Positions 7,175 through 45,782 of a DNA stretch of 64,000 bases are shown one piece after another. This DNA is from Desulforegulaceae bacterium (lineage in GTDB: Bacteria; Desulfobacterota; Desulfobacteria; Desulfobacterales; JACKCP01), in assembly GCA_034006035.1 (NCBI GenBank), contig JAVETN010000002.1:186001-250000 (forward strand), read 5' to 3'. Position numbers and translations under genes: made by a program. Position 1 is the first letter of the stretch; each line of letters begins with the position of its first letter. The notes under the pieces are model-generated. The model was not told where the DNA came from. It did not search any database and saw only the letters and a program-made list of their open reading frames with translations.

Positions 7175-10100
7175 CTATTCTGTTACTATACTGGGAAGAT
7201 CAATTGAACTTCCACCTTCTTGAAGAAAGCGAAAGTAAAAATCTTTAAAATAAATTGTTTCTCTTTTATCTTCTGGTAACTTTTCTGAAGCATCAATTCC
7301 CAGGGTATGAAGACCGATTTCAGGGTTATCATCAAAATATTTTTCAGGTTTTTTGTCATTAATATCAGGAGTTAAAAAAGTTTGACTAAAAACAATTTTA
7401 TTATTTAAATCTTTATCTTTTGCAACAATATTACCCCAGATAGACTTATCTTTTTTAAATCTATATCCTCCCTTTGTTGGAAAATCAGGCTCATCTGAAT
7501 CTTTTTTAACACCTAATCCTTCCCATTGAGCATTTGTAAAATAATTTCCGCTGGAAGGCCATTTTACTGAATAATCTTCTGAGTTTTCTGAATTGTTAAG
7601 ATATTTTTTCCTCTTTGTTTTTCCGTCCTTTAAAAAACCATCTTCTGAACCTATAAAAGCAGTGACTTTATTTATTTTTTCATTCTTGCCATCACAATTA
7701 AAATCACCCTCTTGTTCCATTATTTTAAAACCCAGGGTTACCCAGGGTTTCATATAAAGCCTGTAATTATAGTTTTTCTTTTTTTCCTGGTCATTTAAAT
7801 CTGTTGGAACAATAATATAAGCAAAATTTTCCATAAGATCTTCTGACCCGTCGGGATTTTTAACTTTAATTTCTCCGGGAAGCCCTAAAATATTGTCTTG
7901 ACCATCAATTGTATGTGTTTTTAAAATATTAAATTTATCTGTCAGTTTCCATGCAAGGAATGAATTGTCATAGGTATAATCAGACAATTCTCCATCATAA
8001 TAGCCAGAACCACCGGTATAAGTAATTTTTGCTGAGGCAAAAAATTTTCCTAACAAACCAAACCCTGTAGTCTGGGTAAAGCTTACAGCTTCGCCTTTAA
8101 AATTTTGTTTAGTATAAAGAGTTACTTCAAAACCTTCAGGAACTTGAACTTCTTTCAAGTATACTCCTCCCGAAACTAGCCAAGTAACAGACCCAAAATC
8201 CGCATAATCTCCTGCCTCAAGTTCAAAATCAAGAAATACAGTTCTATCAAACATTACTTTTTCACTACTTTGACTATACTGATAAATAATACACAGTTCA
8301 GCACTAACAAGAGGCATATAAGAAAGCCAGTCAAACTTTTTTCCTTCTTTCTGCCAAAAAACAAGATAGGGAATACCATCAAGGGGAGGATCTTCATCCC
8401 AACTTACCATATTATAAATTGGATCAACACAACCAGCTGTTAGTTGGTGATTCTTTTTATCCTTTTTATCTAAATAAAAAAACTCATCTGGAATATCATC
8501 GTTATCCTCCCCTTTGGTCTTTCCAGTAACACCCCTCATAAAAGAAATTCCATAATAATCTGATTCTCCCCTAAGCCTGAAAGATATTCCCGGCATATAA
8601 TTCCCGGGATAATTAGCTTCACCAGTGAGATCATCTTCATCTTCAGTAAATTTAATTTTAACCTGACCTTCATAGGAAAGAGTATTACCTGATTTTTTCC
8701 ACATTTTTTCTAAAAAAGATTTTTCTTCTTCACTCCAATTATATTCAAAAAGGCTTTCTTTTCCCTTTGGAGGAGCTCCTTTGGTTTCAGTAACCTTTAA
8801 AATACCTGTATCTTTGTCAAGCTTATGACCTCCAATAACACTCTGACTTTTTTCATATTCTTTCAGTCCATCAAAAACCTCACTTAAAATTGCAAAATCG
8901 TCTTTTGAATAAAGGGGCTGATTGCGTGAAAGAACAACCCTTGCCTCTTTAAAACTGCCTTCTCCAGCAACCCCTGTGGAAACTATTTTTACATATCTGC
9001 GGAAAACAATATCAGTATCATCATTAATTTCGACCCCTGAACCAGGGAACTGACTACCTGATAAAGGCAAGGCCTTTAAACCCTTGAGAGTATCCCCCTC
9101 AAACCTTTCATACATGAGAGTATGTCCATTTATAGCCACAACTCCGTTAAAAGGGGGAATAAAGGCTTTAAGTTCTCCCTTGATTTTAATCTCACCGCCT
9201 TCACTAACAATTTTGTCTTCGTCTGCACTTATTACAATAAAAGCATTTTCATCTTTATCCATATTTTTTGGAAAATCATTAGCTGTGATTTTTCCTGAAT
9301 CATAATTAATATCTTTAACAGAATAAATTTCCCTTTTTGACTTATCTTTGACTTTAAGCTCAAACTTCCCTTGTGAAATGTTTATACCTGCTTTTATTGA
9401 ATCAGGAGGATTTCCAACAGATACAAGTACACCTGAAGAAGGCCTGAAATAATAGGATTGAAAATCAAGATAAAACCCTTCTGAATCACCGGTTTTAAAA
9501 AGCTTGCCTTTATTTATTATATTTTCTGCAAAAGCAGTGTCATTATCTTTTTCTTCCATAATAGCAGATAAAGCATATCTAAAACCTGACTCAGCATTAT
9601 AATATGCCCTTTGGCCAAAAAGCCTGGACACATTCTGGCTTTCTCCTGAAGTTAAAAAAGCAATGGCTCCGGCTCCAAGAATACCTGCAACAGCAATTGT
9701 AGCTATAATTGCAATTAAAATACTGCCCTTATTATTAGCAAAAGAAAATTTTCTTTTCTTATTTAAAAAACTGATTATAAATTTTCCCATAACCAAAAAA
9801 ATTCCAAAAATGAAAAAACAAATCAAAGAATATTTTTTTAAAATTAAAGTTGAAAAATTTTCATTGGATAAAAAATTTGTTTTTATATTCTTAATTAAGC
9901 TTAAAGCTTTTTCAAACTCTCCTGCTGATATAAAACAAGAAGGATTTCCCGGGGTGGGATCATCCCCTCCTCCAGGGGGTGGATCAGGTTCATCATCACC
10001 TGGAGTTGACGGAGTAAATTCGTCCAGCCCCGAACCATAAAAAGTGTTTCTTGGAAGAATTGTATCTTTAAATTTAAGATTTGTATTAAAAGGGTTTAAA

Positions 10101-10561
10101 TATTCAATTTCTGCAGTTACTGATTCAAGGTCTTTTTTATCATCTTTTGAAATATCCCAGTTGCCTTGGCCTTTTTTCCCGCTATTGTAACTGAACTTAA
10201 AATTTTCAAAACCTTGAGCTAAAGGCCCGAAGTTTTCACCATCAACCCAAAGATTTAAAGACTTATCTTCTTTTTTAAACTTTTCTGTTATCCTTATATT
10301 TTCATTATTTACCCTTACAATTTCAAGCTCATTATCAGAAGCAGATTCTATATCCACAAGATTTCTCACACTTTTTCTTATTCTTATAAGAGCAAAGTCT
10401 GCTTCGCTTGAAATTGAAGAAGATTCTTTTGCCATAAGATAACTTTTTGTAAGCTGAACTATTCCAAGCCCTGCCAAAGCAGTTAAAAAGGAAGCTATAA
10501 GAAGAACTGCAATAATCTCAACCAGGGTAAATCCGTTTTTATCAGCAATATTTTTTATCAT
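7175..10561 (-). CDS. Giant minor pilin: PilW/MshO-like prepilin fused to a PilX/MshP-like domain
   Basis: This single 1128-residue frame contains two prepilin-like N-termini. Residues 1-35 hold NGFTLVEIIAVLLIASFLTA, a normal class III signal with Glu at +5. A PilW/GspJ-like domain follows, then a Pro/Gly/Asp-rich linker (~185-206). Next come CFIS at ~208-211 and a hydrophobic segment ending in basic residues (NKKRK, ~265), resembling a CFI-box C-terminal sorting tail. Directly after it, KGSILIAIIATIAVAGIL (~278-296) and SRLFGQRAYYNAESGFRYAL look like the start of a PilX/MshP-type minor pilin, which usually lacks Glu +5. The remaining ~830 residues are beta-rich, with a beta/gamma-crystallin-like stretch near 810-850. 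The position after GspH- and GspI-type pilins matches MSHA order C-D-O-P. It probably acts at the pilus tip; fusion versus read-through of two former genes is unresolved. Confidence 0.75.
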   Translation of the reverse strand: MIKNIADKNGFTLVEIIAVLLIASFLTALAGLGIVQLTKSYLMAKESSSISSEADFALIRIRKSVRNLVDIESASDNELEIVRVNNENIRITEKFKKEDKSLNLWVDGENFGPLAQGFENFKFSYNSGKKGQGNWDISKDDKKDLESVTAEIEYLNPFNTNLKFKDTILPRNTFYGSGLDEFTPSTPGDDEPDPPPGGGDDPTPGNPSCFISAGEFEKALSLIKNIKTNFLSNENFSTLILKKYSLICFFIFGIFLVMGKFIISFLNKKRKFSFANNKGSILIAIIATIAVAGILGAGAIAFLTSGESQNVSRLFGQRAYYNAESGFRYALSAIMEEKDNDTAFAENIINKGKLFKTGDSEGFYLDFQSYYFRPSSGVLVSVGNPPDSIKAGINISQGKFELKVKDKSKREIYSVKDINYDSGKITANDFPKNMDKDENAFIVISADEDKIVSEGGEIKIKGELKAFIPPFNGVVAINGHTLMYERFEGDTLKGLKALPLSGSQFPGSGVEINDDTDIVFRRYVKIVSTGVAGEGSFKEARVVLSRNQPLYSKDDFAILSEVFDGLKEYEKSQSVIGGHKLDKDTGILKVTETKGAPPKGKESLFEYNWSEEEKSFLEKMWKKSGNTLSYEGQVKIKFTEDEDDLTGEANYPGNYMPGISFRLRGESDYYGISFMRGVTGKTKGEDNDDIPDEFFYLDKKDKKNHQLTAGCVDPIYNMVSWDEDPPLDGIPYLVFWQKEGKKFDWLSYMPLVSAELCIIYQYSQSSEKVMFDRTVFLDFELEAGDYADFGSVTWLVSGGVYLKEVQVPEGFEVTLYTKQNFKGEAVSFTQTTGFGLLGKFFASAKITYTGGSGYYDGELSDYTYDNSFLAWKLTDKFNILKTHTIDGQDNILGLPGEIKVKNPDGSEDLMENFAYIIVPTDLNDQEKKKNYNYRLYMKPWVTLGFKIMEQEGDFNCDGKNEKINKVTAFIGSEDGFLKDGKTKRKKYLNNSENSEDYSVKWPSSGNYFTNAQWEGLGVKKDSDEPDFPTKGGYRFKKDKSIWGNIVAKDKDLNNKIVFSQTFLTPDINDKKPEKYFDDNPEIGLHTLGIDASEKLPEDKRETIYFKDFYFRFLQEGGSSIDLPSIVTE

Positions 10562-33719: not shown

Positions 33720-34226
33720 ATGGTTGTGATGGATAAAGAAAATAAATTTAAATTAAAAAAACCTGTTCCTTCCGATGGTAAATTAATCTGGGAACTTGTA
33801 AAAAACTCCAAATCCTTAGACCTCAATTCTATTTACCACTATGTTCTTATGGCAGACCATTTCAATGAATCATCAATAGCAGCTTTTAAAGATAACGAGC
33901 TGGCAGGCTTTGTTACAGCTTATTTTCCACCAATTAAACACCAAACTCTTTTTGTATGGCAGGTTGGCGTTTCCAAAAAATTTCAGGGTCGCAATCTTGG
34001 AAAAACAATGATTACAACCCTTGCAAAATCTCAATTATCTCAAAAAGTTAAATATCTACATGCTACGATAACGACTTCAAACAAGGCTTCCATAGCCCTT
34101 TTTAAATCAACAGCAAAATCTCTTGATTCAAATTATAAATTTGATGAGATTATTTATCCCAAAGACTTTTTTGGTGAAACCGGCCATGAGCCTGAAAAAC
34201 TATTTCAAATAGGCCCAATAAACTGA
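33720..34226 (+). CDS. ectA: L-2,4-diaminobutyrate N-gamma-acetyltransferase
   Basis: This 168-residue GNAT acetyltransferase catalyses the second committed step of ectoine synthesis. Family motifs include DGKLIWELVKNSKSLDLNS (~19-37), PPIKHQTLFVWQVGVSKKFQ (~76-95) and the acetyl-CoA loop RNLGKTM. Possible starts are ATG 33720, GTG 33726 and ATG 33729. The strong AAGGAGG at 33685-33691 lies 28 bases before the first of these, which is unusually far. An in-frame stop at 33702-33704 rules out an upstream start in this frame. ectB follows after ~120 bases. Confidence 0.92.
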   Translation: MVVMDKENKFKLKKPVPSDGKLIWELVKNSKSLDLNSIYHYVLMADHFNESSIAAFKDNELAGFVTAYFPPIKHQTLFVWQVGVSKKFQGRNLGKTMITTLAKSQLSQKVKYLHATITTSNKASIALFKSTAKSLDSNYKFDEIIYPKDFFGETGHEPEKLFQIGPIN

Positions 34227-34345
34227 CGTTTAATAAAAAACTTATTCAGATTGATTATAAGAATGCTTAGATTTTCTAATTTAAACCTAAGCTTCTGAAA
34301 AATCAGTCTTTTTAAATTTAAATATAAATTAAAACAGGAGATATT

Positions 34346-35626
34346 ATGAGAATTTTTGAAACCTTAGAATCAAGGGTAAGAGGCTATATAAGATCTTTTC
34401 CCGTGGTGTTTGAATCATCTAAAGGTGCAATTTTAAAAGATGAAATGGGAAAGGAATATATTGATTTCTTTGCAGGTGCAGGAACCCTTAACTATGGACA
34501 CAATAACGATCATGTAATTAAAGCCATGATCGAATACCTGGAAAAAGACGGGGTTCTTCACGGCCTTGATATGGCTACAACAGCAAAGAAAAAATTCCTT
34601 GAAAAGTTTAAATCAACAATTCTTGAACCAAGAAATATGGACTATAAAATTCAGTTTACAGGTCCAACAGGCACAAACGCAGTTGAAAGTGCACTTAAAC
34701 TTGCAAGAACAATCAAAGGCAGATCAAATATTGTGGCATTTACCAATGCCTTTCATGGACTTAGCATGGGTTCTCTTGCTGTAACAGGAAATGAATTTTA
34801 CCGTGATGAAGCCCATATAAGCCGTTCAAATGTTTCATTCATGCCTTTTGACAGCTATCTTGGTACCGATTTCAATACCTTGGATTATTTTAGAAAAGCA
34901 CTTACAGATAAAAGTAGCGGACTGGATCTTCCAGCTGCTGTTATCCTTGAAACCATCCAGGCAGAAGGTGGTATTAATATTGCCAGCCCAGAATGGCTAA
35001 GTGAACTTTCAGATATTTGCCGGGAGTTTGAAATCCTTCTTATTGTTGATGATATCCAGGTTGGAAACGGCAGAAGCGGTGATTTTTTCAGCTTTGAAGA
35101 ATCAGGAATCAAACCTGATATAATAACACTTTCCAAGGCAATAGGAGGAGGACTTCCCCTTGCAATGGTTCTTATGCGTCCAGATCTTGACCAATGGAAG
35201 CCTGGAGAGCACACAGGAACATTTAGAGGGAACAACCTTGCCTTTATAGCTTCAGCCCAATGCCTTGACTATTGGGACACCAATGACTTAAGCGAATCTG
35301 TAAAGTACAAATCAAAAATAATGAAAGAAGAACTTGAAAGAGTTGCAGAAAAATTCCCTGAGCTTGAAGCAAAAGTCAGGGGAAGGGGAATGATCTACGG
35401 ACTGGAAATACCTGAGCTTAATCTTGGAACTGAAATTTCAAAAAAATGCTTTGAAAACGGTCTTATAATTGAGCTTGCAGGAGGTGAAGATCAGGTTTTA
35501 AAACTTCTTCCCCCTCTTATTATTGATGAAGCTCTTTTAAAAGAGGGAATTTCAATAATTGAAAGCTCAATTGAAAAAATTTTAAATGAAAAACTTGAAA
35601 AAGCATCTGGAGAATTCACCCTATGA
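34346..35626 (+). CDS. ectB: Diaminobutyrate--2-oxoglutarate aminotransferase
   Basis: This 426-residue class III PLP-dependent aminotransferase converts aspartate semialdehyde to 2,4-diaminobutyrate, the first step of ectoine synthesis. Signatures are FFAGAGTLNYGHNN (~42-55), FTGPTGTNAVESALKLARTI (~109-128), LLIVDDIQVGNGRSGDFFSF (~230-249) and the PLP lysine in TLSKAIGGGLPLAM (~260-273). Length matches EctB. It has its own GGAG site and overlaps the start of ectC by four bases. Confidence 0.95.
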   Translation: MRIFETLESRVRGYIRSFPVVFESSKGAILKDEMGKEYIDFFAGAGTLNYGHNNDHVIKAMIEYLEKDGVLHGLDMATTAKKKFLEKFKSTILEPRNMDYKIQFTGPTGTNAVESALKLARTIKGRSNIVAFTNAFHGLSMGSLAVTGNEFYRDEAHISRSNVSFMPFDSYLGTDFNTLDYFRKALTDKSSGLDLPAAVILETIQAEGGINIASPEWLSELSDICREFEILLIVDDIQVGNGRSGDFFSFEESGIKPDIITLSKAIGGGLPLAMVLMRPDLDQWKPGEHTGTFRGNNLAFIASAQCLDYWDTNDLSESVKYKSKIMKEELERVAEKFPELEAKVRGRGMIYGLEIPELNLGTEISKKCFENGLIIELAGGEDQVLKLLPPLIIDEALLKEGISIIESSIEKILNEKLEKASGEFTL

Positions 35627-36018
35627 TAGTAAGAACTCTTAAGGAAATTGTTGGAACAAAAAGAGATAAAAAAGCCAAAAACGGAAATTGGGTAAGCAGG
35701 AGATTTCTTTTAAAGGACGATGGAATGGGTTTTTCATTCCATGAAACAATAATTTTTGCCGGAACAGAAACTCTTATCTGGTATAAACATCACCTTGAAG
35801 CTGTTTACTGCGTTGGAGGAAAAGGTGAACTTGAACGCCTTGACACCAATGAAATTATAAAAATTGAAGACGGAACAATGTATGCTCTCAATGGCCATGA
35901 AAAACATCTTTTAAGAGCTTCGGAAGATTTAAGACTGATCTGCGTTTTTAATCCGCCTTTAACAGGCAGTGAAGATCACAATAGTGAAGGGGTTTATCCT
36001 CCTCCAAATCCTGACTAG
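35623..36018 (+). CDS. ectC: L-ectoine synthase
   Basis: This 131-residue cupin enzyme closes N-gamma-acetyl-diaminobutyrate to ectoine. The N-terminus MIVRTLKEIVGTKRD is family-typical. FHETIIFAGTETLIWYKHHL and EAVYCVGGKGELE (~44-76) hold the metal and substrate residues, and LNGHEKHLLRA is a further cupin motif. The start overlaps the ectB stop (ATGA). No ectD hydroxylase or ask_ect follows; a terminator closes the operon, so the product is ectoine rather than hydroxyectoine as far as this locus shows. Confidence 0.95.
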   Translation: MIVRTLKEIVGTKRDKKAKNGNWVSRRFLLKDDGMGFSFHETIIFAGTETLIWYKHHLEAVYCVGGKGELERLDTNEIIKIEDGTMYALNGHEKHLLRASEDLRLICVFNPPLTGSEDHNSEGVYPPPNPD

Positions 36019-36840: not shown

Positions 36841-38718
36841 TTAAAAAACTGAGTCATAAAAAAACATATTGTAAGTATCAGCCATGGCAAGTTTTATCCA
36901 CCGTTTCTGATGTTTTAAATCAGAAAAAGTAATATGCAGCAAATCATCTGCCTTATCTGCAATTTCATCCTGCCATTTTTCTATTTCCAACTCACTGAAA
37001 TTTGAATCAAGAAGAATTCCGTCATAATCATCCATTGACTCAAGGTATTCAATTTCTGGCAAAACATTTCTTTTCCATATAAAAACCTCCCTTTCCATTT
37101 CCCCCCGGAAATCAAAGTAGTTTTCAGATGTTGCAATGGTAAATAAAACCGCCCTGTTTCCTTGATCCGGGTAAAGAAATCTTAAATCACCATCAAGGAA
37201 ATGAGGCCTTTCAAGCCTGGTCCTTGATAAAATTTCTTTTTTACAGGGTTTAAATTCCGGCTCAATAAAAACAACTTCAAATGGGATAAAAGGATTTTTT
37301 AAAGAAAGGATTTCAATTGTTTTTAAAATATAATCTTTATCTTTTATTTTTTTGCCAAAAATTATCTGATAAGGAGAAGCCATCTTTTCTGAAATCTTTC
37401 CAATTTCACTTAAATCCCTTTTTTCAAAAATAATAAGTTTGGAAATATAATCAAAAGATCCAAGTTTTACTTTTATATCTTTTCCAGATTCAGATTTATG
37501 GGAAAGCTCAATTTCAGGCATGGGAAAAAATGAAATCCCAAGCATTTGTTCAGCATATTCAAAAGATTTTAAAATATCTTCTTCGCTAAACCCGGGAGAT
37601 GAAATTATATTGTAAGGCGGCTCAGGATTAAATTTAAGCCCAAGCTTTTGATGATTAAGCCTGAAATCTGTTCCAGGAATTACACTCAAAGGAAAAAACT
37701 GAACATCTTCTTCCAGGTTGTTTTCTAAAATAAAGTCTATGGATTTTTTTATCCCCAAGGGGTCATCTCCTGGAAGACCAGTGATAAGATCAACACAAGG
37801 GCTTATCCCCCGCTTTTTTAAAATATTTACCCCTTTAATAAACTTTGAAAGATCTGTGGGTCTTTTCATAATAGAAAGGGCTGATGAATTTACAGATTGA
37901 AGGCCTATTTCAAAGCTTTTAAAATTAGATTCAAAAAACAAGTCCCCAAGTTTAGGTGTAATGGATTCAGCTCTTATCTCGCTGTGAAATCCTGTTTTTT
38001 TATCCTTATTTATTAAAGAGAGATCTTTTAAAAAACCTTCGAGATCAGGCCTTGTGTTTAAAGAAGGGTCAAGAAAATAAACTTCTGAAATTTTTTCTGA
38101 AATAGCATATTCAACTGCTTCATAAACTCTTGGTGCAGGTCTTACACAAACTTTGCTTCTTGATTTATTGTAATAACAATATCCGCAGGAATAAGGACAG
38201 CCTCTTTGGGTTTCAACAAGGATTGAATCCTGGATATGGGGCTCAAGCATTCCTTGTACATAAGGGCTTGAAAGATTTTTAAAAATAAAGCAATTGTCTT
38301 TGTCTTCTTTAGTAAAAACCTGGGGACAAATAATTTTTTTAAAAAAAGACTCTCCTTCGCCAAAAACCACAAAATCAGCACAACTATCCAAAACAAGCCT
38401 GTTGTCAGGGCAGGCTTCGGGTCCCCCAAAACCAATTCTTATATTGTGTTTCTTAAGTTTCTCTGCTATATAAATACTTCTTTTTACATTCCAACAAAAC
38501 AATGTAAAGCATACTATATCAGGTCTTTTGTACAAAATGAGTTCTATAAGAGCAAAATCTCCTAAGTAAGATCCAATACTTTCAGGAACAATTTCTACCT
38601 GTTCATCATAGGGTTTGGGAATTGCAAGCTTCAGACAAGCACCACCAAGAGGAACATTGCCTGTTTTAAGTCCTGAATTTAATCTTGGGATGGGAAGCTG
38701 AATAAGGAGCGTTTTCAT
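36841..38718 (-). CDS. B12-binding radical SAM protein
   Basis: The protein is about 625 residues from ATG 38718; an in-frame TTG at 38730 would add four residues and neither has a clear ribosome binding site. The N-terminal ~130 residues look like a cobalamin-binding Rossmann domain (MKTLLIQLPIP, IGFGGPEACPDNRLVL, FVVFGEGESFF). The radical SAM cluster motif CPYSCGYCYY (~178-187) is CxxxCxxC, followed by EVYFLDPSLNTR and EIGLQSVNSSALSIMKR. The C-terminal ~230 residues include sequences typical of B12-radical-SAM subfamilies (ERPHFLDGD, YFDFRGEMER). The reaction is unknown; such enzymes often methylate or rearrange unactivated carbons. Confidence 0.85.
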   Translation of the reverse strand: MKTLLIQLPIPRLNSGLKTGNVPLGGACLKLAIPKPYDEQVEIVPESIGSYLGDFALIELILYKRPDIVCFTLFCWNVKRSIYIAEKLKKHNIRIGFGGPEACPDNRLVLDSCADFVVFGEGESFFKKIICPQVFTKEDKDNCFIFKNLSSPYVQGMLEPHIQDSILVETQRGCPYSCGYCYYNKSRSKVCVRPAPRVYEAVEYAISEKISEVYFLDPSLNTRPDLEGFLKDLSLINKDKKTGFHSEIRAESITPKLGDLFFESNFKSFEIGLQSVNSSALSIMKRPTDLSKFIKGVNILKKRGISPCVDLITGLPGDDPLGIKKSIDFILENNLEEDVQFFPLSVIPGTDFRLNHQKLGLKFNPEPPYNIISSPGFSEEDILKSFEYAEQMLGISFFPMPEIELSHKSESGKDIKVKLGSFDYISKLIIFEKRDLSEIGKISEKMASPYQIIFGKKIKDKDYILKTIEILSLKNPFIPFEVVFIEPEFKPCKKEILSRTRLERPHFLDGDLRFLYPDQGNRAVLFTIATSENYFDFRGEMEREVFIWKRNVLPEIEYLESMDDYDGILLDSNFSELEIEKWQDEIADKADDLLHITFSDLKHQKRWIKLAMADTYNMFFYDSVF

Positions 38719-38764
38719 TATAAACTGCAAAAAGGAAAATCCTTTTGCCCTTTGGAAGTGTTGG

Positions 38765-38840
38765 TGGTAGGCACGTCCGGGATTGAACCGGAGACTTCTA
38801 CCGTGTCGGGGTAGTGCTCTGCCAGCTGAGCTACGTGCCT
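38765..38840 (-). tRNA. tRNA-Val (anticodon GAC)
   Basis: On the minus strand, acceptor AGGCACG pairs with CGTGCCT, the D-arm is AGCTCAGCTGGCAGAGC, and the anticodon arm is CTACC-CCGACAC-GGTAG with GAC. The T-arm is CCGGTTCAATCCCGG and CCA is encoded. It lies between the radical-SAM gene and the nqr operon. Confidence 0.94.
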
Positions 38841-38983: not shown

Positions 38984-40330
38984 ATGAAAAAAATTCGGAT
39001 AAACAAAGGATTTAACCATCCTCTCTCGGAAATTAAAATTACTGCAAATTTTGAATCAGACTTGCCTTTACCTGAAAAAATAGCAGTGCTTCCTTTTGTT
39101 TTTAAAGGAATAAGGTCAAGGCTTTTAGTCGATAAAAATGATTATGTAAAAACAGGTACCCCTCTATTTACAGCCAAAAGAGACCCTGAACTTGTTTTTC
39201 TTTCTCCAGGCTGCGGTAAAATAACTGAAATTGAAATCGGGGCAAAAAGAATAATCCAAAAAATTGAAATCTCTCTTGATGAAACTGAAGACTATGAAGA
39301 ACTCCAGACTGTTACTGAAAGCAATTTAAGAAGCCTTTCAGCCAATGAACTGACTGAGATTCTACTAAAAGACGGACTTTGGCCTTATCTTAGATCTTTG
39401 CCTTTCAATACAATTCCTATGCCCGATGAAAAGCCCGATATTATACTTGTAAAACTATCGGACAACGTACCTTTTTATCCGCTTCCTGAGACCTGGCTGA
39501 AGCACAGGTTAAAAGCTTTTAATCATGGAATTTCTGTTTTAAAGAAATTGGCTGATAAAGTAATTGTTTATGCAGATAAAAACAATCACAGTATAGGTGA
39601 ATGCGCCTCATCAATAAACTATCTTGTTGAAGGCAAATATCCTGCTTTTGATCCCGGGGTGATTTTCTACCACTTAAAAAACAAACCTGAACTTAATGCC
39701 TGGTATATTGACGGACAGGCACTTATAAATATTGGAGAAACCCTCTCCCAGGGAAGATATTTTACAGACAAGACATTTATTGTATATCCAGGCGACTCCA
39801 AAAAACCCTATCATGTCAAATCAAGAATAGGAGCACCTATATCTTCTCTTGTAAAAAACATTGAAGAAATAAGTGGAAACCAAAGGTTTATTTCAGGGGA
39901 TATCTTCAGGGGAACCAAGTCTTCTAAAAACGGATATTCAGGATTTTATGAGCCTTCAATTACAATAATTCCTGAAGGAGATGAAAAAGAATTCCTTGGT
40001 TTTTTAAAACCAGGCAGAAACAAGGAAAGTTATTCAAAAACATTTTTATCTTCTATTCTGCCCTCAGGTTTATCAACAAACTGCAATCTCCATGGTGAAA
40101 AAAGAGCTTGCATAAACTGCTCATACTGCGAACAAGTGTGTCCTTTAGATATTCTTCCACAGTTTACCATGAAAGCTCTTTACGGTGATGACCTGGATTC
40201 CGCATTGGCACATGGACTCCTTGACTGCACAGAATGTTCACTTTGTTCATATGTGTGTCCTTCAAAGATTCCTCTTTCCCAGGTTTTCAAAGAGGCAAAG
40301 GATAATTATCTAAAAGAGAAAAAGGCATAA
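38984..40330 (+). CDS. nqrA: Na+-NQR subunit A carrying two RnfC-like 4Fe-4S motifs
   Basis: This 448-residue protein is the first gene of the Na+-translocating NADH:quinone reductase operon. NqrA features include the N-terminal KGFNHPLSE, the biotinyl-like VFLSPGCGKITEIEIGAKR (~69-87), LLKDGLWPYLRSLPF (~127-141) and SRIGAPISSLV (~283-293). Unusually, the C-terminus has two complete cluster motifs, C376-x2-C379-x2-C382-x3-C386-P and C415-x2-C418-x2-C421-x3-C425-P, as in RnfC. Classical Vibrio NqrA lacks working clusters. The quinone-binding role is known for NqrA; cluster binding here is predicted from sequence. nqrB starts seven bases downstream. The ribosome binding site is weak. Confidence 0.88.
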   Translation: MKKIRINKGFNHPLSEIKITANFESDLPLPEKIAVLPFVFKGIRSRLLVDKNDYVKTGTPLFTAKRDPELVFLSPGCGKITEIEIGAKRIIQKIEISLDETEDYEELQTVTESNLRSLSANELTEILLKDGLWPYLRSLPFNTIPMPDEKPDIILVKLSDNVPFYPLPETWLKHRLKAFNHGISVLKKLADKVIVYADKNNHSIGECASSINYLVEGKYPAFDPGVIFYHLKNKPELNAWYIDGQALINIGETLSQGRYFTDKTFIVYPGDSKKPYHVKSRIGAPISSLVKNIEEISGNQRFISGDIFRGTKSSKNGYSGFYEPSITIIPEGDEKEFLGFLKPGRNKESYSKTFLSSILPSGLSTNCNLHGEKRACINCSYCEQVCPLDILPQFTMKALYGDDLDSALAHGLLDCTECSLCSYVCPSKIPLSQVFKEAKDNYLKEKKA

Positions 40331-40337
40331 AAGATTT

Positions 40338-41510
40338 ATGAAAAAGCTGATTAGAAATTTTTTTGACACCAATAGAAAACATTTTCAGGATGGAGGCAGA
40401 TTCAACAGATTTGAACCTGTTTTCGATGCTTTTGAAACAATTTTATTTGTTCCTGAAGAAACTACCTCGGGCAGCCCCCACGTAAAAGATTTTCTGGATC
40501 TCAAAAGATTTATGTCCATTGTTATCGTGGCTCTTATCCCGTGTACGGTTTTTGGAATATACAACAGCGGAAGTTATTCACTTCAAGCAAAAGGGGTTTC
40601 ACCAGAAATTTTTTCTTCTTTTATTGAAGGGCTTATACTTTTCCTGCCCCTTCTTGTTATTTCATACGGAGTGGGACTTTTCTGGGAAGGATTGTTTTCA
40701 GTTATAAGAAGGCACAAAGTAAGCGAAGGATTCCTTGTAACCGGACTTTTATATCCCCTTATTCTTCCTCCAACCATACCCTTATGGCAGGCAGCTGTGG
40801 GTATTTCCTTTGGAGTAATTATAGGAAAAGAAGTTTTTGGAGGAACAGGCCGAAATATCTTAAACCCTGCTCTTACAGCAAGGGCTTTTTTGTTCTTTGC
40901 TTATCCTGCAAGTTTATCCGGAGATACAGTCTGGATCAAAAACTTTTCACCTGATGCAGTTACAGGAGCAACACCTCTTGCTCTTTCAGCCTCAGCTGAA
41001 AGAGGAGCTGATTTGACAAACGTCCTTAATCAGAACGGATTTGATTTTTATAATCTTTTCATGGGATTCACTCCTGGTTCCATAGGAGAAACATCTGCTC
41101 TTCTTTGTCTTATCGGAGGAATTTTTCTTGTAATAACCGGAGTTGCAAGCTTCCAGACAATAATTGGAGGAATTGCCGGTGCAGTTTTAACAGCTTTGTT
41201 TTTAAATCTTTTTTCAGGTGTTTCAGACAATGCATATTTATCACTAAACCCACTTTATCATCTTGTAATGGGTGGATTTGCATTTGGAATTTTCTTTATG
41301 GCAACAGACCCTGTAACTTCTCCGGGAATCAAAGGAGCCAGGTGGGTTTACGGGTTTTTAATAGGAATGCTTACAATCCTGATAAGAGTATTCAACCCTG
41401 CATACCCTGAAGGAACAATGCTTGCAATTCTTTTCATGAACCTTTTTGCTCCGCTTCTGGATTATTATGCAATTAAATTCAGATTAAAAAAGAGGATACC
41501 CAATGTCTGA
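40338..41510 (+). CDS. nqrB: Na+-NQR subunit B
   Basis: This 390-residue membrane subunit carries riboflavin and a covalently bound FMN and forms much of the Na+ path. The N-terminal soluble part (FNRFEPVFDAFETILFVPEE) and SGSPHVKDFLDLKRFMSIVI are NqrB-specific. The FMN attachment motif is in DAVTGATPLALS (~205-216). About ten hydrophobic segments are visible. It overlaps nqrC by eight bases. Confidence 0.94.
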   Translation: MKKLIRNFFDTNRKHFQDGGRFNRFEPVFDAFETILFVPEETTSGSPHVKDFLDLKRFMSIVIVALIPCTVFGIYNSGSYSLQAKGVSPEIFSSFIEGLILFLPLLVISYGVGLFWEGLFSVIRRHKVSEGFLVTGLLYPLILPPTIPLWQAAVGISFGVIIGKEVFGGTGRNILNPALTARAFLFFAYPASLSGDTVWIKNFSPDAVTGATPLALSASAERGADLTNVLNQNGFDFYNLFMGFTPGSIGETSALLCLIGGIFLVITGVASFQTIIGGIAGAVLTALFLNLFSGVSDNAYLSLNPLYHLVMGGFAFGIFFMATDPVTSPGIKGARWVYGFLIGMLTILIRVFNPAYPEGTMLAILFMNLFAPLLDYYAIKFRLKKRIPNV

Positions 41511-42213
41511 TAATTTTAAATCTATTTTATTTACTATTGTTCTATGCACTGTAGCCAGCCTTTTGCTTACATTGGCAGCCTCAAGACTAAAGCCTCTTCA
41601 GGAAAAAAACGCCCTTGTAAACAAAGAAGCCAATATATTGATGGCCGCAGGATATATAGGCTCAGTTCAGCCTCCAGCAGAAAAAATAAGGGAAATTTTT
41701 AAAGAAAAAATTATCCCTGCCAACTCAAAAGAAAACCCAGATCTTGAACTTTATCTTACCTATGCCGATTCAGGTGAAATTTCAGGTTATATAGTACCTT
41801 TTGAATCAAGTGGACTCTGGGGAAGAATTTACGGCTATATTGCTTTAGAAAACGATGGAATAACCATTTCTGGTGTAAGTATTTATCAACACCAGGAAAC
41901 TCCCGGACTTGGAGCTGAAATTGATAAAAGACCGTTTTTAGACAATTATACAAACAAAAAAATAATAGATAAAAACAACAATTTCAAAGGAGTGATGGTT
42001 GCCAAAGGCAGAGTTGCAGACTCCATTTCAATTTCAGAAAGAGATCATTATGTTGACGGAATCAGCGGGGCAACTCTCACAGGTAGATTTCTAGGTGAGG
42101 GGATGATAGAAACCCTTGAAAAATACGAACCTATTTCAAAAAAATTTCGCAACAACAATATTGATTTCAACACCGACAATACAACAAAAAAACAATTAAA
42201 AGGTGAGCCATGA
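41503..42213 (+). CDS. nqrC: Na+-NQR subunit C
   Basis: This 236-residue protein has one N-terminal membrane helix ([20 protein letters not shown]) and a periplasmic FMN-binding domain. [12 protein letters not shown] (~125-136) is the conserved flavin-domain motif, and the FMN is linked to Thr in SGATLTGR (~187-194). [11 protein letters not shown] is also typical. The start overlaps the end of nqrB and the stop overlaps the start of nqrD. Confidence 0.94.
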
Positions 42214-42830
42214 AACTTTTAAATAACCAATATATAAAAACCATGCTTGAGCCTATTATAGGCAACAACCCCATAAATGTTCAGATGCTTGGTATCTGTT
42301 CAGCTCTTGCAGTTACAGTTCAGCTCAAAACTGCCATTGTAATGGGTCTGGCACTTACCTTTGTTATTACCTTTTCCAACCTGGTTGTTTCTATTTTTAG
42401 AAAGCTGGTGCCTGATAGCATAAGAATTATATTTGAACTCTGTGTTATAGCTACACTTGTTATTCTTGCAGATGAATTTTTAAAAGCTTATCTTTTTGGA
42501 ATAAGCAAACAGCTTTCTGTTTTTGTAGGTCTTATCATAACCAATTGTCTTGTGATGGGAAGAGCCGAAACTTTTGCCCTTGGCAGCACTCCGGGTCTTT
42601 CTTTAATGGACGGATTTGGAAACGGACTTGGCTATTCCTTTGTTTTAATTTTTGTTGCTTTTGTAAGAGAACTTTTTGGCTCGGGCAGTCTTTTTGGATA
42701 TAAAGTTATTCCTGAATTTTTATACAACGCAGGATATACTGACATGGGATTTATGCTTCTTGCGCCGGCGGCTTTTATTATAATCGGGCTTCTTGTTTGG
42801 CTTCAAAACTCTCTTTTCAAATCCCAATAG
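42210..42830 (+). CDS. nqrD: Na+-NQR subunit D
   Basis: This 206-residue integral membrane subunit has six helices. It contains [17 protein letters not shown] and [17 protein letters not shown], each with the conserved Cys that in NqrDE coordinates an intramembrane iron-sulfur centre. The start overlaps nqrC by four bases; nqrE follows after 16 bases with a GGTGGAGG site. Confidence 0.95.
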
Positions 42831-42846
42831 TTGGTGGAGGACATAA

Positions 42847-43455
42847 ATGGAAAACCTATTAAGTCTTTTTGTAAACTCAGTTTTTGTAGGAAACATTCTT
42901 TTATCATATTTTTTGGGAATGTGTGCTTTTGTTGCGGTTTCCAATAATTATAAAACTGCAGTAGGCATTGGATTTGCCGTTATTTTTGTAAACTCTGTTA
43001 CAGCACCTGTAAACTGGCTTGTATTTCATTATCTTCTTGCCCCTGGAGCTTTGTCATGGGCAGGTTTGCCAAACATGGACCTGAGTTTTTTAAAATACAT
43101 TACTTTTATTGCCTCAATAGCTGCCATGGTACAAATTGTTGAAATGATAATAGACAGGTTCTCTCAACCTCTTTATACTGCACTTGGCGTATTTCTTCCG
43201 CTTATTGCAGTTAATTGTGCAATCCTTGGTGCCTCCCTTTTCATGGTTGAAAGGGAATACTCTCTTACTGAAACAATAGTTTTTGGATTTGGCTCTGGAT
43301 TTGGATGGTTTCTTGCCATGATAACTCTTGCTGCTATAAGAATTAAGCTTTTGTATGCTGATCCCCCTGAAGGACTCAAAGGTTACGGGTTGACCATGAT
43401 AGTAGCAGGTCTTATGTCAATGGGATTTATGATTTTTTCAGGGATTTCTCTTTAA
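42847..43455 (+). CDS. nqrE: Na+-NQR subunit E
   Basis: This 202-residue, six-helix protein is homologous to NqrD in inverted topology. [19 protein letters not shown] (~14-32) and [18 protein letters not shown] (~116-133) contain the two conserved Cys residues. It is distinguished from RnfA by the NqrE-type long loop ([18 protein letters not shown]) and by its operon. Confidence 0.95.
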
Positions 43456-43480
43456 ACAAAACTTATTAGGAGATTTTGAA

Positions 43481-44698
43481 GTGATATATTTTGTAAGCCT
43501 TTCAGTTTTTACAGGCGTAACCCTTTCCTTGGTGGTTCTTCTTTTAATTGTAAAAAACAAGCTTTCTCCGGCAGGCAAAAATAAAATAATAATAAACGAA
43601 GATAAATCAAAAAGCATCGAAGTATCCAGCGGAACAAACCTATTAAACGCCCTTGTAAACGAAGGGATTCTACTTCCATCTGCCTGCGGAGGAGGAGGAA
43701 CCTGTGGATTGTGTAAACTTCAGGTCCTTGAAGGTGGAGGAGAAATTCTTCCCACTGAACTTGGCCATATAACAAGAAGCGAAAAAAAAGATCAAGTAAG
43801 ACTTGCATGTATGATGAGGGTCAGAGATGACCTTAAAATAAAAATTCCCGATGAAATATTTAATATTTCAGCTTATGATGCTGAAGTTGTTTCAAACGAC
43901 AACATTTCTACCTATATAAAAGAACTTATCCTCAAAGTTGATGATTCCCAAACCTTTGAATTCAAAGAAGGTACTTATATCCAAATAGAAGTGCCCCCCT
44001 ATGAAAACATAAAATTCAGTGATTTTGATATAGATGATCAATACATTGAAGAATGGGAAAGCGAAGGACTTCTTAATCTCACAGCTTCTTCCAGTGAAGA
44101 AGTCATCCGTGCCTATTCAATTGCAAATGCCCCCTATGAAAAAGACGTGATTCTTACAATAAGAATAGCAAATCCGCCTGAAGACAAACCTGATGTAATG
44201 CCAGGCCTTGGTACCTCATATCTCTTTACACTTAAACCCGGAGACAAGGTCAGATTCACAGGTCCTTACGGGGATTTCTTTGTAAAAGACACAGACAATG
44301 AAATCTGCTTTGTGGGAGGAGGTGCTGGAATGGCTCCAATGAGATGTCATATACTTCACCTTTTAAACACCCTTGATTCAAAAAGAAAAATCACCTTCTG
44401 GTACGGAGCAAGATCTGTAAGGGAAATTTTTTATGAGGACCTTTTCAGGGATCTTGAAAAAAAGCATGATAATTTCAAATTTTATATAGCCTTATCTGAA
44501 CCAATTGAATCGGAAAAATGGGATGGAATGACAGGATATATCCACCAGGCCCTTTATGATAATTATATTAAACAGCATAATTCACCGGAAGATATTGAAT
44601 ATTATCTTTGCGGCCCCCCAATAATGGTTGAGTCAGTAATTAAAATGCTTATAAACGAGGGAGTGGAAGAAGATTCAATTCTGTTTGATGCTTTTTAA
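43481..44698 (+). CDS. nqrF: Na+-NQR subunit F (NADH dehydrogenase / electron input)
   Basis: This 405-residue subunit takes electrons from NADH. An N-terminal helix (FVSLSVFTGVTLSLVVLLLI) anchors a 2Fe-2S ferredoxin domain with C69, C75 and C78 in SACGGGGTCGLC and a fourth Cys in RLACMM. The FAD domain shows RAYSIANAP, and the NAD domain GGGAGMAPMR, FWYGARSVREIF and YYLCGPPIM. Presence of this gene rather than rnfB distinguishes the operon as NQR. A GC-rich hairpin follows. Confidence 0.96.
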   Translation: MIYFVSLSVFTGVTLSLVVLLLIVKNKLSPAGKNKIIINEDKSKSIEVSSGTNLLNALVNEGILLPSACGGGGTCGLCKLQVLEGGGEILPTELGHITRSEKKDQVRLACMMRVRDDLKIKIPDEIFNISAYDAEVVSNDNISTYIKELILKVDDSQTFEFKEGTYIQIEVPPYENIKFSDFDIDDQYIEEWESEGLLNLTASSSEEVIRAYSIANAPYEKDVILTIRIANPPEDKPDVMPGLGTSYLFTLKPGDKVRFTGPYGDFFVKDTDNEICFVGGGAGMAPMRCHILHLLNTLDSKRKITFWYGARSVREIFYEDLFRDLEKKHDNFKFYIALSEPIESEKWDGMTGYIHQALYDNYIKQHNSPEDIEYYLCGPPIMVESVIKMLINEGVEEDSILFDAF

Positions 44699-44783: not shown

Positions 44784-45782
44784 CTAAAGATAAGAAATTT
44801 CTTCCTTTAACATACAGCAGGCAATTTTATAAAAAGGCTTTCCATTTTTGTCATAACTCAAATTACCCGGCTGAATTATTTTATTCAAAACACAACCTTC
44901 AGGTATATCAAGATCAAAAAGGGATTCTTCTGTTATGCCGCTGTTTTTTAATAAACGATTTTTATCAAACTCATAGGAATGAACAGGATAATCTTCGCAA
45001 AGAGGGCATTTGTATACCCTGTCATTTGGAAAAAGAAAGTAGTTGTCAGCAACAACACCCGCACATTCAAATTTTTCATCTAAGCCTAAAAAAACCTTTG
45101 GATAAGTGACTATAATTTTATGATCCCTTGCAATTTTATCGGCTATTTCAGGAACTACACTTTCCCAAGTACCTTTTGTAAGCTGTAATGAGCTTCCTTT
45201 TTCATCTGCAGAGCCTCTTATTCCTATCACCTGAATAAAAAATCGTGAAATTCCAAGATCTTTGACAAGATCATACATATTTTCAAGTTCATGGATGTTT
45301 TTAGAACTTACTGTATATATCAAGCTTGTGGTAAATCCTTTATCAGCAGCTTCTTTTATACCCCTGGTGCAAGTATCAAAAACACCTTTCCCTCTAATGG
45401 GATCGTTTGTTTCAGGGGAAGCTCCGTCAAGGCTGAAGCTAATAAAATCAAGATCTGAAGGCTTGATTTTATTTAAAATATCATTGAAAAGATATCCATT
45501 GGTATCAATTGTAATTGATGAATAACCAAGTTCTCCTGCTTTTTTTACTCCATAGGCAAGATTGGGATTTAAAGTCGGTTCTCCCCCAAGAAAAATCACA
45601 TTGGCCTCTTTGTTTTTATTTGAAAAAAACTTCAGCCACTCATAAATTTCCTGCTCAGAAAGTGTTTTGGTTCCGTGCTGAGAAGGATTTATATAGCAAT
45701 GTTTGCATTTAAGATTGCATTGGGTGAGAATATGAAAAAAAATATTTGTTGCATGTTTTTTAAAATCTACTGTCCGTTTCAT
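44784..45782 (-). CDS. Radical SAM/SPASM-like protein
   Basis: The protein has 332 residues. The 4Fe-4S/SAM motif CNLKCKHCY lies at ~22-30, followed by VIFLGGEPTLNPNL (~63-76), SFSLDGASPETNDPIRG and IQVIGIRGS. The C-terminal part has scattered cysteines (FECAG, YKCPLCEDYP, EGCVLNK, ACCML) that probably bind auxiliary clusters, as in SPASM or twitch domains. Enzymes of this type often modify peptides or mature other enzymes, but no precursor peptide gene is visible beside it. It converges on nqrF and shares orientation with the cNMP-binding gene. Confidence 0.82.
   Translation of the reverse strand: MKRTVDFKKHATNIFFHILTQCNLKCKHCYINPSQHGTKTLSEQEIYEWLKFFSNKNKEANVIFLGGEPTLNPNLAYGVKKAGELGYSSITIDTNGYLFNDILNKIKPSDLDFISFSLDGASPETNDPIRGKGVFDTCTRGIKEAADKGFTTSLIYTVSSKNIHELENMYDLVKDLGISRFFIQVIGIRGSADEKGSSLQLTKGTWESVVPEIADKIARDHKIIVTYPKVFLGLDEKFECAGVVADNYFLFPNDRVYKCPLCEDYPVHSYEFDKNRLLKNSGITEESLFDLDIPEGCVLNKIIQPGNLSYDKNGKPFYKIACCMLKEEISYL

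Follow-up and report, generated by a model that had tools for sequence, protein, structure and literature searches.

The closest described relatives of the complex reported here are the Na+-NQR of V. cholerae (PDB 8a1u, 7xk3) and the RNF complex (PDB 7zc6, 8ahx, 9eri), and two accounts describe NqrA as cofactor-free (PMC4014512, PMC12174285). In the scenario of Reyes-Prieto et al., RnfB was lost, followed by the FMN, NAD and cluster sites of RnfC, and NqrF was recruited next (PMC4014512). The same paper places Desulfobacteraceae among the earliest NQR branches, with a transfer from Chlorobi inferred; it states that NqrA has lost its cysteines, and the passages covered do not mention their retention in Desulfobacteraceae NqrA. 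In the literature searched, which largely excluded subscription journals, no description was found of a cluster-bearing NqrA or of an NQR subtype containing one, here called FeS-NQR, which is apparently an undescribed variant of NQR conserved across the order of the host.

In the window (the whole stretch of 64,000 nucleotides analysed), positions 38984-44698 of the plus strand hold a complete six-gene operon, nqrABCDEF, with nqrA first. The nqrA gene (38984-40330, plus strand, ATG start) encodes 448 amino acids, and is followed on the same strand by nqrB (40338-41510; NF003756, 502 bits, cut-off 414), nqrC (41503-42213; FMN motif SGAT; TIGR01938, 162 bits, cut-off 144), nqrD (42210-42830; C30 and C113 for the intramembrane 2Fe-2S center; TIGR01939, 282 bits), nqrE (42847-43455; C26 and C124 for the same type of center; TIGR01940, 290 bits) and nqrF (43481-44698; GTG start; TM helix, 2Fe-2S ferredoxin, FAD and NAD domains; TIGR01941, 549 bits, cut-off 295). 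The five other subunits, NqrB to NqrF, pass their NCBIfam equivalog cut-offs, and together with the NqrF domains and the FMN motifs of NqrB and NqrC this bears out the assignment of the operon to nqr made in an earlier note on this DNA. NqrA stays below every NCBIfam NqrA cut-off despite a full-length match (TIGR01936, 284.5 vs 321 bits; NF003761, 391 vs 450 bits), as do four of five other FeS-NqrA, the fifth lying above; such a score counts against a standard NqrA, not against the complex being NQR.

The protein is nevertheless an NqrA. Pfam models NQRA_N, NQRA_2nd and, weakly, NQRA_SLBB were matched, with Fer4 dicluster models at residues 373-430, while neither RnfC_N nor Complex1_51K found a Pfam match in it. 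In phmmer comparisons, V. cholerae NqrA aligned along its full length (E 1e-52) and RnfC only at 372-444. The AlphaFold model (mean pLDDT 86, pTM 0.87) has V. cholerae NqrA as its best fold match (Z 43.3, rmsd 2.4 Å over 394 residues), against Z 26-28 and about 4.3 Å over 405 residues for RnfC. Its C-terminal cluster domain was modelled at pLDDT of about 76-89, and a 41-residue loop ahead of the clusters (334-374), which corresponds to residues that interlace with NqrB in the V. cholerae enzyme, has low confidence. Moreover, in an NqrA/RnfC tree built on the N-terminal part, without the cluster domain, RNF stands apart from NQR (support 100) and the FeS-type NqrA form a single clade (99) that groups with NqrA and not inside RnfC. 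Domains, fold and trees thus rule out an RnfC misnamed as NqrA, and the subunit call of the earlier note stands.

The C-terminus of this NqrA carries the two complete RnfC-type motifs that the earlier note had reported: CINCSYCEQVCP at residues 376-387 (40109-40144, plus strand; C376-x2-C379-x2-C382-x3-C386-P) and CTECSLCSYVCP at residues 415-426 (40226-40261, plus strand; C415-x2-C418-x2-C421-x3-C425-P). The eight cysteines align one-to-one with both [4Fe-4S] motifs of RnfC. Among 22 full-length homologues from the order, with a mean identity of 48%, invariance extends to 45 of 448 columns, all eight cysteines included (hypergeometric P 6e-9), and both motifs are kept without exception while overall identity among FeS-NqrA homologues ranges from 37 to 64%. 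A chance motif is ruled out by this invariance and by amino acid composition, from which about 1.6e-4 motifs per protein are expected. The G-x-G-G motif is absent from FeS-NqrA, and the FMN/NAD site of RnfC is undetectable there, that is, as far as the sequence tells, lost. NqrA of FeS-NQR most likely keeps both [4Fe-4S] sites of an RnfC-like ancestor without its FMN/NAD site.

That standard NqrA has lost the clusters, also claimed earlier, holds for V. cholerae and for 13 further proteins from Bacteroidota, Alpha- and Gammaproteobacteria and other Desulfobacterota, the first three groups being represented by plasmid records and Chlorobi, Planctomycetes and Chlamydiae lying outside the sample. 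Cysteines 1-6 are replaced in 13/13 (by M/I, I/S/L, Y/F, M/L/F, L/V and L/F, respectively). Cysteines 7 and 8 are still present in 11/13, and are a vestige of the lost motif.

The NqrB of the operon has the N-terminal arm of the quinone site, with K56, E117, E130 and G131 corresponding to V. cholerae K54, E144, E157 and G158, as well as the covalent-FMN motif GATPL and the riboflavin-site Asn. Across FeS-type NqrB (V. cholerae numbering), K54 is kept in 22/23 and E144, E157 and G158 in 23/23; RnfD has no equivalents of K54, E157 and G158, whereas E144 is present in RNF. On the NqrA side, R374 (40103-40105, plus strand) corresponds to V. cholerae R372, which forms a salt bridge with NqrB E157 in the quinone site (PMC12779168), and is Arg in 24/24 FeS-type and 13/13 standard NqrA and in 0/10 RnfC. 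R374 precedes the first cluster cysteine by two residues, so the cluster domain is expected to adjoin the quinone pocket; in the RNF complex, 11.7 Å separate RnfD riboflavin from the closer of the two RnfC clusters (PMC9588780). Two further positions vary between the complexes: NqrF C276, immediately ahead of the FVGGGAG motif, is conserved in 58/59 FeS-NQR, where 13/13 standard NQR have V/I/M, and NqrE W57 is found in 59/59 FeS-NQR and 9/9 RNF, while every standard NQR has N or Y there.

In its anatomy, as read from sequence, the complex is an RNF/NQR intermediate that unites RnfC-type cluster motifs with a bona fide NqrF and a bona fide quinone site in NqrB. It shares with the V. cholerae enzyme six subunits in the same order, the cofactor motifs of NqrB to NqrF, the quinone-site residues and the NqrA fold (Z 43), but the V. 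cholerae NqrA is cofactor-free and has cysteines 1-6 of the motifs replaced. With RnfC it shares the C-terminal ferredoxin-like domain and both C-x2-C-x2-C-x3-C motifs at equal alignment positions; in contrast to RNF, it has neither RnfB nor the RnfC_N and Complex1_51K (FMN/NAD) domains, and possesses NqrF and the quinone site. The Rnf2 of Desulfobacteraceae (Desulfobacula toluolica type, PMC5109826) is similar in having a clustered output subunit, reportedly without an NADH domain, whose partner is likewise unassigned; it differs in its large RnfB and in an RnfD without quinone site, and such RNF fall outside NQR in the tree.

Within the order of the host, FeS-NQR is the usual kind of NQR and not an oddity of a single genome. 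When order relatives were searched with the NqrA protein, both motifs were present in 24/25 NqrA, the sole exception being a standard NqrA in one genome (G002). In the class survey, the FeS-NqrA profile matched 130/241 genomes, and among the loci read 85/87 had both motifs and 2/87 were standard; in the phylum sample, FeS-type and standard NqrA both occur. These protein- and profile-based surveys supply the frequency figures; a scan for named hosts (80/80) used cysteine-containing patterns, and shows who carries the motifs, not how often. The hosts so named are Desulfobacterales, including Desulfonema magnum, Desulfosarcina widdelii, D. alkanivorans, Desulfobotulus alkaliphilus, Desulfotignum and Desulfobacula, or belong to records titled merely Deltaproteobacteria, Proteobacteria or bacterium, and a search of viral contigs yielded nothing. 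The earlier note had held that the eight cysteines would be ordinary if most NqrA carried them: they are ordinary within the order and absent as a set from the 13 standard NqrA sampled elsewhere. Some members seem to have a divided operon: at three loci (L055, L081 and L059, the last on the complete chromosome of Desulfonema magnum), no nqrDEF follows nqrABC in the several kb of downstream sequence covered; another locus (L093) has nqrAB only, and at L158 (G034:C8:86000-99000) a 520-aa FeS-NqrA with a large internal insertion is separated from nqrB by a gap of 3 kb.

The descent of FeS-NQR was approached with NqrBDE and NqrBCDE trees, AU tests and site patterns. In NqrB, C, D and E trees, which contain no NqrA, FeS-NQR forms one clade (98/100) inside NQR (100/100), and the nearest named NQR is that of Desulfobotulus alkaliphilus. 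The best NqrBCDE tree places FeS-NQR weakly beside the clusterless Bacteroidota NQR (81/65), a possible sister clade for which NF003761 is likewise the best NqrA model, but whose NqrA has no clusters (loci L136-L138). Such a position would need two losses or one regain, and RNF genes exist in the same genomes, so a clusterless Desulfobacterales NqrA could have recaptured a cluster domain from RnfC by recombination, in which case the clusters would not be ancestral. We regard this as very improbable. When the cysteine columns are masked, the C-terminal domain resembles standard NqrA (29%) more than RnfC (23%); it also has NqrA-type residues such as R374, G371 and K428, and a transplant of the cluster domain looks unlikely; the N-terminal NqrA tree has standard NqrA as one clade with FeS-NqrA as its sister (support 63, weak), and the AU test on the core subunits leaves a single clade of all standard NQR unrejected (p 0.22). 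Single-site patterns on the deep branching are mixed, 4 against 2. Ancestral retention of the clusters is the simpler reading compared with two losses or one regain. The term RNF/NQR intermediate, used in the earlier note, thus suits the anatomy and is only partly backed as a statement of descent, because the three deep NQR branches have no single well-supported branching order.

The host genome (2.64 Mb, 97.7% complete) contains dsrA (605 bits), which supports the sulfate reducer supposed earlier, together with two UbiA-type prenyltransferases over cut-off, one ApbE and a pyruvate:ferredoxin-oxidoreductase-type protein in a frame of 1187 aa. RnfC_N and a NuoF-type protein (Complex1_51K) had no match in the genome, and its single PF03116 (RnfD/NqrB) match is the nqrB of the nqr operon, with no second, RNF-type core; FeS-NQR is, on these grounds, the only RNF/NQR-type pump detected. 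The host is unusual among FeS-NQR genomes in this single homologue, allowing for possible assembly gaps, whereas each of the 23 other FeS-NQR genomes sampled from the order has one or more additional RnfD/NqrB homologues, so that the clusters are not simply a replacement for RNF. No ferredoxin or reductase gene lies in the nqr operon, and no partner gene is common to all FeS-NQR loci, where recurrent neighbours vary. At six loci (L087, L097, L108, L112, L126 and L130) a CooS-like (CO dehydrogenase) gene lies downstream of nqrF on the same strand, with ferredoxin-thioredoxin reductase beta and/or glutaredoxin-like genes between the two on the other strand. In the window, minus-strand radical SAM genes, one with a B12-binding domain, lie on either side of the operon (36841-38730 and 44784-45782), and a tRNA-Val is found at 38765-38840. 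The ectABC genes for ectoine synthesis (33720-36018; TIGR02406, TIGR02407 and NF009806 over cut-off), 3 kb upstream of nqr, fit a salt-adapted host, and a 1128-aa minus-strand ORF at 7175-10561 has no NCBIfam match at 1e-10.

We give a probability of about 0.5 to the reading that FeS-NQR is a distinct, order-wide NADH:menaquinone oxidoreductase that pumps Na+ and has an additional redox branch, linking riboflavin to a partner in the cytosol that is not NAD(H). By homology, electrons would pass from NADH to FAD and 2Fe-2S in NqrF, to the 2Fe-2S of NqrDE, to FMN in NqrC, then to FMN and riboflavin in NqrB and finally to menaquinone, with Na+ pumping. The NqrA clusters would be filled and redox-active and, as in RNF, positioned next to riboflavin and the quinone pocket. 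Through this side branch, riboflavin would exchange electrons with a protein of the cytosol; NAD+ is unlikely to be the partner, given that this NqrA lacks RnfC's FMN/NAD domain, and ferredoxin is a possible one. As an exit port, the branch would offer electrons from NADH, once they had driven the pump, two routes, one to menaquinone and one to a cytosolic carrier. We judge this exit more economical than ferredoxin entry, since electrons that enter at NqrA come in downstream of the Na+-pumping steps.

Were reduced ferredoxin nonetheless to dock on NqrA, its electrons would reach riboflavin and menaquinone via the clusters while NADH was also oxidised, an arrangement we consider rather unlikely. 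A host with a pyruvate:ferredoxin-oxidoreductase-type protein, no RNF and no NuoF would want an outlet for ferredoxin electrons, and genes for CooS and ferredoxin-thioredoxin reductase occur near nqr in several loci; but electrons entering in this way would not pump, the other FeS-NQR genomes have their additional RnfD/NqrB homologues, and opposite-strand genes separate the neighbouring cooS from nqrF. The main alternative to redox-active clusters is a structural or vestigial role, in which they would stabilise the C-terminal domain and its interface with NqrB and carry no electrons. This agrees with the view of NqrA as structural in characterised NQR, as given in PMC4014512 and PMC12174285, and with the retention of cysteines 7 and 8, with no known cofactor, in most standard NqrA. 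However, the clusters are not needed to hold the NqrA fold, since V. cholerae NqrA folds in the same way and has none; two full motifs of electron-transfer type, kept throughout such divergent homologues, point to a cluster-dependent role, and the site adjoins riboflavin and quinone by homology. We therefore think a purely structural role unlikely, and prefer the side branch to a cytosolic partner.

FeS-NQR may also be a living RNF/NQR intermediate, in which NqrF and the quinone site predate the loss of the NqrA clusters, and the clusters join NADH, menaquinone and a low-potential cytosolic carrier, e.g., ferredoxin; we put this forward tentatively. The event order in PMC4014512 misfits at least the FeS-NQR lineage, because NqrF and the quinone site coexist there with both cluster motifs, and if the living-intermediate reading is true, events would have run in the opposite order to the published one. 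What NqrA does and how NQR arose from RNF can both be tested in sulfate reducers that grow in culture, among them Desulfosarcina, Desulfobotulus and Desulfonema. The finding bears on the energy metabolism of abundant bacteria of marine sediments, for which the step from NADH to quinone is usually drawn as an ordinary NQR.
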